Source of the DNA: an uncultured Wenzhouxiangella sp.
Lineage (GTDB): Bacteria > Pseudomonadota > Gammaproteobacteria > Xanthomonadales > Wenzhouxiangellaceae
Reading direction: 5' to 3'
NCBI GenBank assembly: GCA_913057195.1
Contig: CAJXNL010000019.1
Coordinates: 1 to 39,862 of the forward strand
Length of the DNA stretch: 39,862 nt
Shown here piece after piece: positions 6,255 to 19,272 of this stretch. Within the stretch, counting starts at the first letter, position 1. Every line of letters begins with the position of its first letter. The translations under genes were made by a program, and so were the position numbers. A model generated the notes under the pieces. That model searched no databases and was not told the DNA's origin. It saw nothing but the letters and a program-made list of their open reading frames with translations.

Positions 6255-8528
<2,274 letters not shown>

Positions 8529-13839: not shown

Positions 13840-13868
13840 TCGTCATCTCTTACAAAGCTCAGACATAG

Positions 13869-13896
13869 AACCGGGGGCCTGAGGTCCCCGGTTTTT
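13869..13896 (+). terminator. Rho-independent terminator of the first TonB receptor gene
   Basis: CCGGGG (13871-13876) pairs with CCCCGG (13886-13891), with further inner CC/GG pairing around a TGA loop, followed by five Ts (13892-13896). It lies about 30 bases after the stop codon. Confidence 0.92.
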
Positions 13897-13930
13897 CGTC
13901 ACATTTTACGTGTTGACCACAGTCTCGTAG

Positions 13931-14032
13931 CGCGTTGACAGCCAGGCAGCTGGTTCAGGTGAAAAGTCTGTCAAAGCGTTTGTTAACGAGCAGGTGAAAG
14001 TGATGGAATTGGATCGGTTCGATCTGAACTAG
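13931..14032 (+). pseudogene. Decayed katG 3'-end fragment
   Basis: In the KatG frame this reads RVD, then [24 protein letters not shown] and a TAG stop, against the intact KatG end [24 protein letters not shown]. The last 24 codons (13958-14032) align without gaps, with a 35-base identical core at 13994-14028. Upstream, RVD in the same frame may match KatG RVDLVFGS with the piece between deleted; that part is weaker. There is no start codon or ribosome site, so this is a remnant and not a gene. The katG-like terminator follows it. It marks either a former second katG copy or a duplication formed when the amidase/receptor block entered. Confidence 0.85.
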
Positions 14033-14093
14033 AAAAGCCCAATCTTATCAGTCACTTAGTGTCAAAAAAAGCCCCGTTGATCAGGGCTTTTTT
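13958..14093 (+). repeat. Direct repeat copy 2: katG 3' end plus terminator
   Basis: Counterpart of 8394-8528 in the same orientation. The TAGAAAAG after the stop, the TATCAGTCACTT segment (14046-14057) and the AAAAAGCCCCGTT terminator arm are all shared, so homology runs past the coding part into the 3' untranslated region. Confidence 0.85.
14064..14093 (+). terminator. Terminator copy after the katG remnant
   Basis: Seven As, then GCCC (14071-14074) pairing with GGGC (14084-14087), then six Ts (14088-14093). The stem is weaker than the katG original because GTTAATCGGGG became GTTGATCAGGG. Confidence 0.7.
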
Positions 14094-14207
14094 GTGTCTG
14101 GCATCGCGTGGTTTGATGCCTGTCGGGGGGCGCGGATGAAAGTGTTGTTTAGATCATGTTAAGATGATCGGTGAACTCAAAACGAAAGGTTAGGCTATTT
14201 TCCAAAC

Positions 14208-14504
14208 GGCTTGATAAAAGCCATTGAAGAAAACAAGTGAACTCGTGGACGGAGAGGTGTCACCGATCCGTACATCGGTAGAGTTTGATGCTAGAAACCA
14301 CGGGATAAGTGGTGACTCAAAGCCTCATAACAATTCAATATAAACGGCTTTTGAGCAATTAGACGCACAGCGTCTGCATATGAACCCAAAATCAGAGTCT
14401 GCACCTTAAACGGTGCCGGTGGTCTCCGACCACAGAACCCAAAGGCTTTGATGCTTTATCGATGCTTTTAGCATCACCAACGAAAATACAATTGCTTTTT
14501 GGTG
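14208..14504 (+). ncRNA. Candidate structured RNA or leader upstream of the second TonB receptor
   Basis: No gene lies between 14033 and 14684. Nine stem-loops are packed in about 300 bases: GGCTT 14208/AAGCC 14218; ACCGAT 14262/ATCGGT 14274; ACCAC 14297/GTGGT 14309; CTCAAAGCC 14316/GGCTTTTGAG 14346 (one bulge); AGACGC 14361/GCGTCT 14370; GCACC 14401/GGTGC 14412; GTGGTC 14419/GACCAC 14428; GATGC 14461/GCATC 14471; CACCAA 14475/TTGGTG 14499. GTCACC (14259-14264) can instead pair with GGTGAC (14311-14316), which would compete with the second and third stems, as in a switch. I recognise no known riboswitch or RNA family. Strand and promoter are unproven; + is chosen because the receptor gene lies downstream. 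It could be a leader, a small RNA, or DNA-level structure. Confidence 0.4.
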
Positions 14505-14640
14505 AAGTGATTCGTCAGTGACGTGGCTCCGTGGGCGTTTGTGCGTCCGCTCGATTCGTTATCGCCTGTTGATTGGCATCGACGGCCGGAATCTGTTCGG
14601 GAGCGCTTGTTTCTTGAAAAAGCCGATCTTGAGCTTTGCT

Positions 14641-14657
14641 TTCAATTTTTAATTGAA
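14641..14657 (+). repeat. AT-rich inverted repeat before the second TonB receptor
   Basis: TTCAATT (14641-14647), TTT, AATTGAA (14651-14657): a perfect 7-bp dyad directly followed by the palindrome GAATATTC (14655-14662), 16 bases before the ribosome site. It could be an operator or a weak hairpin near the ribosome site. Confidence 0.5.
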
Positions 14658-14684
14658 TATTCATTTAAACCAAAAGGACCAATA

Positions 14685-17171
14685 ATGAGACGAAATCGAT
14701 TATCCGAGGCCATTGGCTGGGTGCTCGCTGCAGGCGCAGTCACCACAGTTCAGGCGCAAGATACCGAGTCCCAGAATGAGTCAGAAAACAGTCGTGAAGT
14801 GGATCGGATGGTGGTGACCGCCACCCGGACCGAAGCCACTGACATGCAGTCGACGGCCGTGGCCGTTCAAGCGATGGATGGGGAAACACTCGATGACATG
14901 GGTGTGGACAACTTTGATGACTTGCAGTCATCAATGCCGGGGATCACGGCGGCCAGCCGCGGTCCCGGTCAGCAAACCATCTTCATTCGAGGGATGTCTG
15001 TCCAGCCCATTTCTGTGCTGCTCTCAGGCGCGCAGGGCACACAGCCCAACGTGGCGCTCTATCTGGATGAGCAGCCCGCAACGGCGCCGGGTCGGAACAT
15101 GGACATCTATGTGACCGATCTGGAGCGGATTGAGGTCCTGCCGGGGCCACAAGGCACGCTGTTTGGCGCAAGCTCGCAAGCGGGCACCATCCGCTACATC
15201 ACCAACAAACCTGAGTTGGGAACCTACGAGGCCGGCTTCACCGCCAGCACCGGGTTCATCAAAGGCGGTGACATGGATGCCAGCGGTGAGGGTTATTTCA
15301 ACCTGCCGGTGGGCGACAACACCGCGATGCGGTTGGCCTACTACAGCGTGCAGCTGGGGGGCTACATCGACAACACATTCGGCGAATTCACCCTCGACCC
15401 AAGCATCAATGCCGACTCGGCCGTTGATCTGGGGCCTGATGCGACTTATGAGTCGACCGATAACCTCGCGCTGGTTGAGGAAGACTTCAACGACGCGTTT
15501 TACAAAGGCGTTCGCTTGGGGCTTTATCACGAGATCAACAACGACTGGAATGTGCTGATCCAAAACACCTACCAGCAGTTGGGCTCGGATGGGGTGTTTG
15601 ACTATGACCCCGATGTCGGTGATTTGGAAGTGAACCGCTACTTCCCTGACAAGCTGCGCGATGACTTCAATCAGCTGTCGTGGACCATCAACGGCCGTGC
15701 CGGCATGTTGGACTTGGTTTACACCGGTGCCTATTTGGATCGCCAGGTGGACCAGTCGGTGGACTACACCGGGTACAACAACTCAGGCGGATTCATCGCG
15801 TACTACACCTGTACCTATGACAACCCCAACTATGTCACCAACTACAACATTGATCCGGCGTTTGTCACTGAATCTCGGGCGTGCTTAGACCCCACCAAGG
15901 GTGCAATCATTGATCAAAAGCATGAGCGATTCACCAACGAACTTCGGTTCTCGACACCGGCGGATAACCGCTGGCGCGTGGTGGGCGGCGTGTTTATGGA
16001 CGATTACACCATTGAGACGCAAGATGACTTTGCCTACTTGGCAACGCCTGATCTTGGTTTTGCGCCCAATGCGCCGATTTCGTTCTCTCAAAACATCAAC
16101 CCCGACACGCGGCCTGCGGGCATTGCCTTTTTCAACGACATCACCCGTGAAGAAGAGCAGTTGGCCTTTTTCGGTGAGTTCAGCTTTGATCTGATCCCCA
16201 ACACATTGAAGGCCACAGTCGGTGCGCGGCGCTATGACATTGAGTCCTCATTTGTGGGTTCATCGAACTTCGCCGATGGCATTTTCCAAGGCTCAGTCAA
16301 CACCGACCGCGGCCGCGACTACGAGAGTTCAGGTGGTCACAGCCCGGATCCGTTGGAGCAGGATGACACCATTACTCGGTTCAACCTGTCTTGGACGCCC
16401 AACGACAATGCGTTGTTCTTTGCAACCTACTCAGAAGGGTTTAGACCAGGTGGTTTCAACCGCGGCGGCGGGATTCCATCAGCCAACCCAGAGTTCCCAA
16501 CCGTTCAAGTGACTTACGACACCGATGATGTCACCAACTATGAATTCGGTTGGAAAACCTCATTGCTGGACAACACCCTTCGGTTCAACGGAAGCGCTTA
16601 CTGGATTAAGTGGGACAACATGCAGGTCTCGCGTTTTGATCCAGCCAACGTGTCAATCCTGACCTTTATCGAGAACTCAGCCGATTCTGAGATCTTCGGT
16701 ATCGAAGGTGATTTTGTGTGGCGCGCCACTCAAAACTTCACCCTGTTTGGGGCGTTTTCATACAACGACACCGAGCTGAAGTCGGTTCAGGCACGCGTTA
16801 TCGAGTTGGCGCCTGTGGGCTCCAGCTTGCCGCTGGTGCCTGAGTATCAGGCTTACTTGCGTGCGCGGTATGAGACGACCGTTGGATGGGACTTTGCTGA
16901 CACGGCGTTTGTCCAAGCTTCGGGGTCGTTTGCCTCGCATGCCTTCAGCTCACTGGTGGCTGATGTCCGCGAGCGTCAAGCGGGTTACTCGATCTTCAAC
17001 GCGTCGGCAGGGATTGCCAAAAATGACTGGTCAGCTGAGGTGTTTGTCGACAATGTGTTCGATAAGCGGGCTGAACTGTTCATTAATGAGCAAGACGATA
17101 TTCCTCGCATCACCACCAACCGTCCGCTGACGGCCGGTGTGAAATTCAATTACCAGTTCACTGGTTTTTGA
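14685..17171 (+). CDS. TonB-dependent outer-membrane receptor (second)
   Basis: 828 residues. A signal peptide (SEAIGWVLAAGAVTTVQAQ) and a short acidic linker with DRMVVTATRTEA (TonB-box-like region) lead to the plug: GVDNFDDLQSSMPGITAA, TIFIRGMSVQP, LERIEVLPGPQGTLFGASSQAG. The barrel carries the usual late strands (FATYSEGFRPGGFNRGGG, TNYEFGWKTSLLDNT) and ends VKFNYQFTGF with the terminal Phe. This architecture is common among receptors of unknown ligand in sphingomonads and marine gammaproteobacteria. The start at 14685 has AAGGA (14674-14678) 6 bases upstream; the frame is open back to 14523, but that part covers a non-coding leader. A structured region precedes the gene and a TPR-sulfotransferase follows after a terminator. 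Confidence 0.93.
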   Translation: MRRNRLSEAIGWVLAAGAVTTVQAQDTESQNESENSREVDRMVVTATRTEATDMQSTAVAVQAMDGETLDDMGVDNFDDLQSSMPGITAASRGPGQQTIFIRGMSVQPISVLLSGAQGTQPNVALYLDEQPATAPGRNMDIYVTDLERIEVLPGPQGTLFGASSQAGTIRYITNKPELGTYEAGFTASTGFIKGGDMDASGEGYFNLPVGDNTAMRLAYYSVQLGGYIDNTFGEFTLDPSINADSAVDLGPDATYESTDNLALVEEDFNDAFYKGVRLGLYHEINNDWNVLIQNTYQQLGSDGVFDYDPDVGDLEVNRYFPDKLRDDFNQLSWTINGRAGMLDLVYTGAYLDRQVDQSVDYTGYNNSGGFIAYYTCTYDNPNYVTNYNIDPAFVTESRACLDPTKGAIIDQKHERFTNELRFSTPADNRWRVVGGVFMDDYTIETQDDFAYLATPDLGFAPNAPISFSQNINPDTRPAGIAFFNDITREEEQLAFFGEFSFDLIPNTLKATVGARRYDIESSFVGSSNFADGIFQGSVNTDRGRDYESSGGHSPDPLEQDDTITRFNLSWTPNDNALFFATYSEGFRPGGFNRGGGIPSANPEFPTVQVTYDTDDVTNYEFGWKTSLLDNTLRFNGSAYWIKWDNMQVSRFDPANVSILTFIENSADSEIFGIEGDFVWRATQNFTLFGAFSYNDTELKSVQARVIELAPVGSSLPLVPEYQAYLRARYETTVGWDFADTAFVQASGSFASHAFSSLVADVRERQAGYSIFNASAGIAKNDWSAEVFVDNVFDKRAELFINEQDDIPRITTNRPLTAGVKFNYQFTGF

Positions 17172-17182
17172 TTGAGGGTTAA

Positions 17183-17215
17183 TCGATCAGGCTACAATTC
17201 TTGTGGCCTGATCGA
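17183..17215. repeat. Perfect 10-bp inverted repeat after the second receptor gene
   Basis: TCGATCAGGC (17183-17192) and GCCTGATCGA (17206-17215) with a 13-base spacer, 20 bases before the terminator. It could be an mRNA 3'-end hairpin protecting the receptor transcript, or a protein-binding dyad. Confidence 0.7.
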
Positions 17216-17235
17216 CTGCTTATGCTTATGCTTTT

Positions 17236-17268
17236 GGCAGGGCGCCGATCGGTGCCCTGCCATTTTTT
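17236..17268 (+). terminator. Rho-independent terminator of the second TonB receptor gene
   Basis: GGCAGGGC-GCC (17236-17246) pairs with GGT-GCCCTGCC (17251-17261) around GATC, followed after one A by six Ts (17263-17268). It ends 15 bases before the sulfotransferase start, so that gene depends on readthrough or its own promoter. Confidence 0.93.
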
Positions 17269-17283
17269 ATTGTGAAAGAGGTC

Positions 17284-19272
17284 ATGTCGAAAGCATCCCA
17301 CGGTTCATTTGATGACACGCTGGCGCAGGCCGAACAGCACCTTCGCCACCAGCAGCTTTTCCAGGCGGAGGCCTTGCTCGATGAGTGCCTCACCTTGAAG
17401 CCCAAGCATCACCAAGCCTTGTTTTTCAAGGCGGTCTGTCGCCGCGCCGATGGCGATCATGCAACAGCCATGGCACATCTTCGGGCAGCGTTGGAAGGCA
17501 AGCCCGATTACGGGCGTGCGTGGCAAGAGATTGCCCACAATCATCGCGACCAAGGGGAACACGCCCCTGCCATTGAAGCGTATCGTCGCGCTTGTGAGCT
17601 CAACCCAGGTTTGCTCGCCAGCTGGCGTGAATTGGCTCGGCTGCTGACTGAGGCAGGCCGCACTCAAGAGGCCGCCAACGCTCAGGCCAATCACGACCGT
17701 TTAGCAAAACTGCCTCGAGTATTGCAGTCGGTCACCTCCATGATGCATGAGGGCAAGCTTTTAAAAGCCGAGCAGGCGTGTCGGCAGCACTTAAAAGCCC
17801 ATCCCAAAGACACTGAAGGCATGCGTTTGTTGGCCGCCATTGGCGCAGAGCTCAACGTGTTGGATGATGCGGAATTCCTGCTGGAGAGTGCGCTTGAGTT
17901 TGAGCCGAAGTTTGATTTGGCGCGGTTGGACTATGTCAAGATTTTGCACAAGCGCCAAAAGTTTCAAAAAGCCTTCGACCAAGCCCAAGAGCTTCGCCGT
18001 CGAATGCCCAACAACTTGGCCTCAGAAATGATCTACGCCAACGAATGTGCAGCGATTGGTCGATATGAAGAGGCCCTGACGGTGCTGGCGCCGCTGGTCG
18101 ATGTCAGCCCCTATCCTGAAAACGTTCACATGCAGCGCGGGCACGCTTTTAAAACCATTGGCGATCAGCGCCAAGCCATCGATGCTTACCGCTCAGCCGC
18201 GGCCCATCGGCCAGAGTTTGGTGATGCGTGGTGGTCTCTGGCCAACCTCAAGACCTATCGCTTCAGTGACGATGATTTAGACCGCATGCGCCAGGCCTTA
18301 ACCTCCGAGCGGGCCTCGGTTATTGATCAATACCATCTTCATTTCGCGCTGGGCAAGGCGTTGGAAGATCGTGAGGAGTTTGCGCAGGCGTTCGATCACT
18401 ACGCCCAAGGCAACGCTTTGAAAAAAGCCCAGGTGCGCTACAGCGCCGATCGCATGCACGCTGACTTCGAGCGCCAAAAAGCCTTTTTCACACCACAGCG
18501 GGTGGCGTCATTCAAAGGCGCAGGCGACCCCGCCCCAGATCCCATTTTCATCGTCGGTCTGCCGCGTGCAGGCTCGACGCTGATCGAGCAGATTCTGGCG
18601 TCTCACAGCCAAATTGATGGCACTTTAGAGCTTCCCAACATCTTGGCCATGGTGCATCGATTAAACGGTCGCCAGCTGGTCAATGACACCCCTCGCTACC
18701 CTCAGGTGCTCGCAGACCACAGCGCCGATGAGCTTCGGGCGTTGGGCGCCAAGTACATTGAAGACACGCGCATTCATCGCCAAGGTGCGCCGCTGTTTAC
18801 CGATAAGATGCCCAACAACTTTCGCCACATTGGTTTGATCAAGACGATTTTGCCCAATGCACGGATCATCGATGCGCGCCGCCACCCCATGGCCTGCTGT
18901 TTTAGCGGGTTCAAGCAGTTGTTTGCCGAAGGCCAAGAGTTTTCATATGGCTTGGAGGACATCGGGCGGTATTGGACAGACTATGCCGATTTGATGGACC
19001 ACTGGCACACGGTGTATCCGGGCGAGATTTTGCAGATGGACTATGAGGCGGTGGTCGATGATTTAGACGGCCAGGTCAAACGTTTGTTGACATTCTTGGG
19101 CCTGGCGTTTGAGCCCCAGTGCGTTGAGTTCCACCAGACCCGGCGATCGGTGCGAACCGCCAGCGCAGAGCAGGTCCGACAGCCCATCTACAAAGCCGGT
19201 GTGGCGCAGTGGCGGCATTTCGAGCCGTGGCTGGGCCCATTAAAAGCCGCGTTGGGTGCGCATGCCGAATAA
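17284..19272 (+). CDS. TPR-repeat sulfotransferase family protein
   Basis: About 662 residues. Roughly the first 400 are tetratricopeptide repeats (e.g. ALEGKPDYGRAWQEIAHNHR, AIEAYRRACELNPG, AIDAYRSAAAHRPEFGDAW). The C-terminal 250 form a PAPS-dependent sulfotransferase: 5'-phosphosulfate loop IFIVGLPRAGSTLIEQIL near residue 420, then DKMPNNFRHIGLI and ARIIDARRHPMACCFSGFKQ, containing the usual 3'-phosphate-contacting Arg and Ser. Such fusions are often found next to TonB-dependent receptors; the acceptor is unknown (protein tyrosine or carbohydrate are options). ATG 17284 has GAGG only 2 bases upstream, and an in-frame GTG at 17272 has none, so the start is uncertain by 4 codons. Confidence 0.88.
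   Translation: MSKASHGSFDDTLAQAEQHLRHQQLFQAEALLDECLTLKPKHHQALFFKAVCRRADGDHATAMAHLRAALEGKPDYGRAWQEIAHNHRDQGEHAPAIEAYRRACELNPGLLASWRELARLLTEAGRTQEAANAQANHDRLAKLPRVLQSVTSMMHEGKLLKAEQACRQHLKAHPKDTEGMRLLAAIGAELNVLDDAEFLLESALEFEPKFDLARLDYVKILHKRQKFQKAFDQAQELRRRMPNNLASEMIYANECAAIGRYEEALTVLAPLVDVSPYPENVHMQRGHAFKTIGDQRQAIDAYRSAAAHRPEFGDAWWSLANLKTYRFSDDDLDRMRQALTSERASVIDQYHLHFALGKALEDREEFAQAFDHYAQGNALKKAQVRYSADRMHADFERQKAFFTPQRVASFKGAGDPAPDPIFIVGLPRAGSTLIEQILASHSQIDGTLELPNILAMVHRLNGRQLVNDTPRYPQVLADHSADELRALGAKYIEDTRIHRQGAPLFTDKMPNNFRHIGLIKTILPNARIIDARRHPMACCFSGFKQLFAEGQEFSYGLEDIGRYWTDYADLMDHWHTVYPGEILQMDYEAVVDDLDGQVKRLLTFLGLAFEPQCVEFHQTRRSVRTASAEQVRQPIYKAGVAQWRHFEPWLGPLKAALGAHAE

Follow-up and report, generated by a model that had tools for sequence, protein, structure and literature searches.

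The window analysed in this work, a stretch of 39,862 nt from an uncultured Wenzhouxiangella sp., carries a gene for a TonB-dependent receptor and, directly before it, a region without any open reading frame of at least 80 aa (13840-14522). The original prediction had described a gene-free, dense array of stem-loops at 14208-14504, and the listed stems are found at their places in the sequence, for example AGACGC-ACA-GCGTCT (14361-14375) and GTGGTC-TCC-GACCAC (14419-14433). The limits of the array had been drawn too narrowly: the element that is conserved in two aligned relatives, G021 and G007, extends from ~14152 to ~14545. It is followed by ~90 bases of low similarity and then by a conserved stretch around the ribosome-binding site of the receptor gene (~14674), which lies some 130 nt beyond the structured part. 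The main features of the locus are the following.

14152-14208, + strand: 5' block (model R2), CTCAAAACGAAAGG..AG..TATTTTCCAAACGGC, largely unpaired in consensus folds
14157-14165, + strand: extended -10 promoter-like motif TGTTAAGAT, with a predicted transcription start near 14171
14208-14222, + strand: hairpin GGCTT/AAGCC, whose length and sequence differ between relatives
14249-14271, + strand: hairpin ACGGA/UCCGU with inner GGU/ACC, from the consensus folds of unguided alignments; one pair is broken in G007
14508-14540, + strand: 3' tract TGATTCGTCAGTGACGTGGCTCCGTGGGC, near-invariant in the three aligned sequences
14685-17171, + strand: TonB-dependent receptor of 828 aa, the presumed regulated gene (Pfam TonB_dep_Rec_b-barrel 1.2e-28, Plug 9e-16)
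17272-19272, + strand: TPR-sulfotransferase, the next gene after the receptor (library match and locus comparison)

A similarity search of 61 genomes with 13850-14690 as the query (threshold E 0.001) gave matches in five of them, namely the window's own genome, G021 (73% identity), G007 (70%), G051 and G042. The last two are not real relatives, as their similarity is confined to the terminator region of the katG copy described below (32-37 bases). At the level of the genus, the region occurs in 3 of 30 genomes including the window's own, and in the two others (2 of 29) it precedes the same TonB-dependent receptor, in the order katG, region, receptor. In the window, where an insertion intervenes, katG is found 5.4 kb farther upstream. 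The katG 3' end and terminator (13948-14093) are a direct copy of 8384-8528 (84% identical), and the two copies bracket ~5.4 kb that hold an amidase and another TonB receptor. G021 and G007 have no such insert between katG and the leader.

Folding and conservation of the stem-loops

The predicted array folds better than its shuffled versions on the + strand (14208-14504: -92.8 kcal/mol versus a shuffled mean of -70, sd 4.81; z -4.74), with none of 200 shuffles as good. The - strand of the same interval reaches z -2.99, a value equalled in 1 of 200 shuffles, and the leaders of two relatives fold at z -2.82 and -3.59. Stem-loops had been said to be far more frequent here than elsewhere in the window outside terminators, which is overstated. 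In a scan of the two strands in 300-nt windows (528 in all), with only 20 shuffles per window and hence rough z values, the best leader window (14251, + strand) has z -3.91 and ranks 8th, and the adjoining windows 14101 and 14401 on the + strand reach only -0.96 and -1.96 (20 shuffles). Four of the seven windows that score better overlap a hairpin and terminator at 17183-17262, the others being 15901 (+ strand), 23851 (+ strand) and 20101 (- strand). The region is therefore unusual for the window, not unique in it.

Two of these other folds can be described further. The one at 17183-17262, in the gap between the receptor and sulfotransferase genes, is made of two parts, a 15-bp inverted repeat (3-nt gap) and, after it, a terminator-like hairpin of 14 bp with a T-run, and is the strongest of the window (z -10.2 for 300 nt and 20 shuffles; z -7.48 for 131 nt and 200 shuffles). 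Inside the receptor gene, 15901-16200 folds on the + strand at z -4.87 (20 shuffles).

Comparison with relatives shows that the helices are kept and that 10-12 pairs have changed on both sides, counts that come from three sequences of one genus (the window, G021 and G007), as do all comparisons of the core. More precisely, RNAalifold applied to an unguided alignment of 14238-14482 gives 68 pairs, 10 of which are changed on both sides, and a longer unguided alignment gives 87 pairs, again with 10. Because MAFFT misplaces two of the hairpins (P2a and P2b, see below), the 220-nt core was aligned by hand; this alignment is fitted to the structure and hence leans towards it, and it holds nine helices with 58 pairs, of which 12 have changed on both sides; of its 170 cells, 98.8% are paired. 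In the controls for this alignment, none of 500 shuffles attains any of five measures and structures slid along the sequence pair 34-44% of cells.

The consensus energy of the MAFFT alignments provides a control that does not lean towards the structure, in which column shuffles preserve the gap pattern and the variability of columns, not the dinucleotides. On the + strand it gives z -7.88 for the core (0 of 100 shuffles) and z -7.8 for ~14152-14560 (0 of 40), and on the - strand z -5.33 (0 of 100) and z -2.88 (0 of 40), respectively. Six 240-base stretches of receptor-coding sequence, each taken on both strands (12 tests), range from z +0.44 to -3.33.

We read the core as a multibranched structure of ~220 nt inside a leader of ~510 nt, for which our model has the following helices.

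14277-14284 with 14453-14460, + strand: P1, closing helix of the multibranched core, with three G-U pairs; invariant in 3 of 3 sequences
14288-14291 with 14376-14379, + strand: P2, which encloses P2a, P2b and P2c; invariant in 3 of 3
14297-14301 with 14309-14313, + strand: P2a hairpin; 5 of 7 model pairs changed on both sides (hand-fitted alignment, 3 sequences)
14316-14324 with 14346-14355, + strand: P2b hairpin with a large A-rich loop; 4 of 10 model pairs changed on both sides (hand-fitted alignment)
14362-14374, + strand: P2c hairpin GACGC-ACA-GCGTC; invariant in 3 of 3
14391-14399 with 14444-14452, + strand: P3, which encloses P3a (14401-14416) and P3b (14419-14433)
14461-14475, + strand: P5 hairpin GATGC-TTTTA-GCATC, with an invariant stem and a variable loop; 14461-14464 may extend P1 instead
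14474-14505, + strand: P6 hairpin TCACCAA/TTGGTGA, with an invariant stem and a variable loop (3 sequences); its 5' end competes with P5

Being invariant, P1, P2, P2c and P5 cannot be judged by covariation in either direction. The helices that support the structure are P2a, P2b, P3, P3a and, in part, P3b. In the hand-fitted alignment, P3 has one pair changed on both sides, three changed on one side and every cell paired, P3a has one pair changed on both sides, and 86.7% of the P3b cells are paired. The stem-loops are part of a conserved structured RNA of the + strand. The opposite strand would have A-C mismatches in place of the three G-U pairs of P1, which points to an RNA read from the + strand. 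As none of the three sequences has lost these pairs and folding is better on the + strand than on the -, the suggestion that the region could be an array of DNA hairpins is disfavoured.

The alternative pairings put forward for a two-state switch fare less well in the relatives. The pairing of GTCACC with GGTGAC is present in the window, but the GGTGAC half is absent in G007, and we rejected this switch as a conserved feature. The alternatives between GATGC and GCATC are only partly kept, the first GATGC (14450) being GGTGC in G021 and AATGC in G007. One competition is invariant in the three sequences: GAUG at 14461-14464 can pair with CAUC at 14273-14276, thereby extending P1, or with GCAUC at 14471 within the local hairpin 14461-14475. 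The 3' tract (14508-14540) could pair with the 5' end of the transcript or form a hairpin of its own (CGTC-AGT-GACG). A closing helix between the transcript 5' end and ~14508-14516 appears in one consensus fold and is absent from another; as the two folds disagree on the closing pairs, it is only tentative.

Linkage to the receptor gene

A model of the 220-nt core (R1) finds one copy in each of the same three genomes among 43 genomes of the family and 398 of the order. The receptor protein is present in 11 of the 43 family genomes (E 1e-80 or better): 3 of the 30 genomes of the window's genus (g1), six of genus g6, and one each of g5 and g3. Core and receptor co-occur in the same 3 of 30 genus genomes. 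At the eight receptor loci of other genera R1 remained unmatched even with the filters off (best 9.8 bits, E 0.079).

On reading the upstream DNA of these loci, we noticed that six of them, all in g6, share the 5' block. The core was not found in these six leaders, and the two modules therefore differ in range. R2, a sequence model built from nine loci (three in g1 and six in g6), matches those nine at E 1.3e-10 or better among the 398 genomes of the order, scores that follow by construction since the model was built from them. No other of the 398 genomes scores near these loci; nine weaker ones, at E 0.009-0.047, were presumed to be due to chance. A search of the class with R2 (369 genomes, E 0.001) returned the window's own match only. 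The 5' block thus precedes the receptor in 9 of the 11 receptor-bearing family genomes, across two genera, at ~390-530 nt from the receptor start, while R2 has no match at the g5 and g3 receptor loci (2 of the 11 family orthologues) or at four more distant receptor loci. Within the block, TGTTA (14157-14161) is invariant in 9 of 9 aligned leaders, and we read it as part of an extended -10 element, whence the start predicted near 14171. A consensus scan found no sigma-70 hexamer pair in 13840-14700, and promoter and start site are both putative.

The genes upstream of the leader change from one genus to the other. katG was not detected in up to 1.5 kb upstream of the eight other-genus receptor loci, where the longest reading frames, as judged by eye, encode on the opposite strand a GHMP-kinase-like protein in three loci (L069, L070 and L071) and, in L067, another protein. 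We rejected an attribution of the leader to katG, a homologue of which is found in 20 of the 30 genus genomes, compared with just 3 for the leader. As the upstream gene varies and katG is far commoner than the leader, the latter follows the receptor and not the neighbour. Downstream of the receptor, a TPR-sulfotransferase (50-60% identity) is encoded next in the window and at each of the eight loci compared from other genera (L066-L073). Judging from these loci, leader and receptor travel together, along with the sulfotransferase where it was looked for: at nine loci in two genera the 5' block precedes the receptor gene, and it stays with that gene where the upstream neighbour is a different one.

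Known families and wider searches

The original prediction recognised no riboswitch or RNA class in the region, in line with which no Rfam 15 family is matched at the gathering threshold in the whole window. The same holds for 10 related loci. Permissive scans gave four matches in 13840-14700 of the window, two in L069 (3970-4580) and two in L003 (1560-2060), all far below threshold. Neither the cobalamin riboswitch nor the group I and group II intron models are among the Rfam matches of the window, the 10 related loci and the permissive scans of these three stretches. Phage and plasmid collections gave no blastn match at 1e-5.

Searches for a wider occurrence of the leader yielded nothing convincing. 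They used stricter filters and scored only some of the first-look candidates of each genome (at most 6 for R1 in the order, 13 for R2 in the order and 14 for R2 in the class), so that weak relatives could be missed. The pattern CCGTACATCGGTAGAGTTT does not occur in the viral contigs. The pattern ATCGGTAGAGTTTNATGC is also absent from the viral contigs and occurs in 24 stretches of the genome contigs, near the chance number by our own arithmetic; at a threshold of E 1, R1 matches 2 of the 24 (best 9.6 bits). Finally, GACGCACAGCGTCTGC occurs in 20 stretches of the viral contigs. R1 matches 11 of these at a threshold of E 5 (best 10.2 bits), in every case within the P2c hairpin (model positions 98-112).

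The best-known case of TonB-dependent receptors under RNA control is that of vitamin B12, with the cobalamin riboswitch standing before btuB-type TonB receptors. Like riboswitches and structured leaders, the element described here is a long structured element of the + strand directly before a TonB-dependent receptor gene, with a multibranched core and conserved unpaired stretches. Unlike known riboswitches, it matches no Rfam family at the gathering score, and we identified neither a terminator nor a masked ribosome-binding site. OLE, GOLLD and ROOL are large structured non-coding RNAs of bacteria, which the element resembles in its elaborate branching and unusual size and from which it differs in being tied to a receptor gene and in lacking matches in Rfam, phages or plasmids.

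No such leader was found in the accessible parts of the literature, including those of PMC8040213 and PMC5864184, a large 2017 survey of candidate RNAs being covered only as far as Rfam includes it. There is a likeness to HMP2_1032 (PMC8040213), a palindromic candidate RNA of 106 bp that lies near TonB in Bacteroidetes, as both are candidate structured RNAs near a gene of the TonB system. By its description there, HMP2_1032 is set apart in that it belongs to Bacteroidetes, lies near TonB and not near a receptor, is palindromic and is smaller (PMC8040213). The conserved structured RNA of the window, which matches no catalogued family, is apparently undescribed.

Reading of the region and rival explanations

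We interpret the region as a long structured 5' leader (~510 nt) of the mRNA of the TonB-dependent receptor, most likely acting in cis, a reading to which we give a probability of roughly 0.7. Three options had been offered at the outset, a leader of the receptor, a stand-alone small RNA and a DNA hairpin array, and the first is the best supported of them, by the compensatory changes, the co-occurrence with the receptor, the differing upstream genes and the absence of an intrinsic terminator before the receptor in a simple scan.

Under this interpretation, transcription would probably start near 14171 from the extended -10 promoter. The leader would open with the conserved, mostly unpaired block and continue into the multibranched core, in which P1 closes a junction of P2 (three hairpins) and P3 (two), followed by P5 and P6. 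A small molecule, a protein or a small RNA may bind the 5' block or the core, and binding could shift which helices form and thereby alter transcript elongation or receptor translation; the use of GAUG 14461-14464 either to lengthen P1 or to form P5 is a candidate for such a two-state competition. As the ribosome-binding site lies ~130 nt past the structure, its direct masking, or an expression platform, is not evident, and the candidate outputs are Rho-dependent termination, transcript stability and small-RNA binding. It is possible, if rather doubtful, that the leader represents a large multibranched riboswitch of a new class, confined to few lineages, that would sense the substrate of the receptor or its product and set receptor production.

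The adjacency of the receptor could instead be incidental, the region being a structured non-coding RNA of ~350-380 nt that stands alone, has its own promoter and ends or is processed near 14545. The conserved structure does stop near that point, with ~90 poorly conserved bases before the conserved ribosome-binding region, and the core is elaborate for a leader. However, its presence tracks the receptor, and the 5' block stays within ~390-530 nt of the receptor start in two genera in which the upstream gene differs. A simple scan found no intrinsic terminator after the structure, nor elsewhere between 13840 and 14700; it also missed two upstream hairpin/T-run sites visible by eye (~13872 and ~14063), because their loops exceed its limit. 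On balance, we consider a stand-alone RNA unlikely.

We regard as quite improbable a reading in which a transcription regulator binds the 5' block as DNA, at the promoter, and the structure downstream is unrelated to this: the block extends over the presumed promoter and ~40 bases at the start of the transcript, and it is conserved in sequence with little consistent pairing, but the compensatory changes over the following 220 nt would be left unexplained. That the region encodes a small protein or a leader peptide is very improbable. In all three sequences one and the same frame is open across ~14227-14286 (best blastp E 1.8e-10, G007 versus G021), and a GTG frame from 14523 begins with M-[AT]-P-W-A in 3 of 3. 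Yet the frames do not share their starts and ends, the peptides become dissimilar at the compensated RNA pairs, and the GTG frame (14523-14685) ends after 14 codons in G007 and enters the receptor in the window and G021; we rejected the coding reading for this inconsistency of frames and this divergence at compensated pairs. Finally, chance folding without function, which would fit the - strand and some coding windows also beating their shuffles (one receptor-coding control has z -3.33), has a negligible probability in view of the double-sided changes in several helices and a consensus energy of z near -7.9 on an unguided alignment.

Taken as the leader of the receptor mRNA, an element without a known family would be a lead to a signal, and perhaps to the substrate of the receptor and its sulfotransferase partner. 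If the riboswitch reading were true, the 5' block shared by two genera, with different downstream domains in each, would make this a modular leader. The finding suggests that elaborate RNA structures may be confined to few species and thereby escape catalogues of widely shared motifs.
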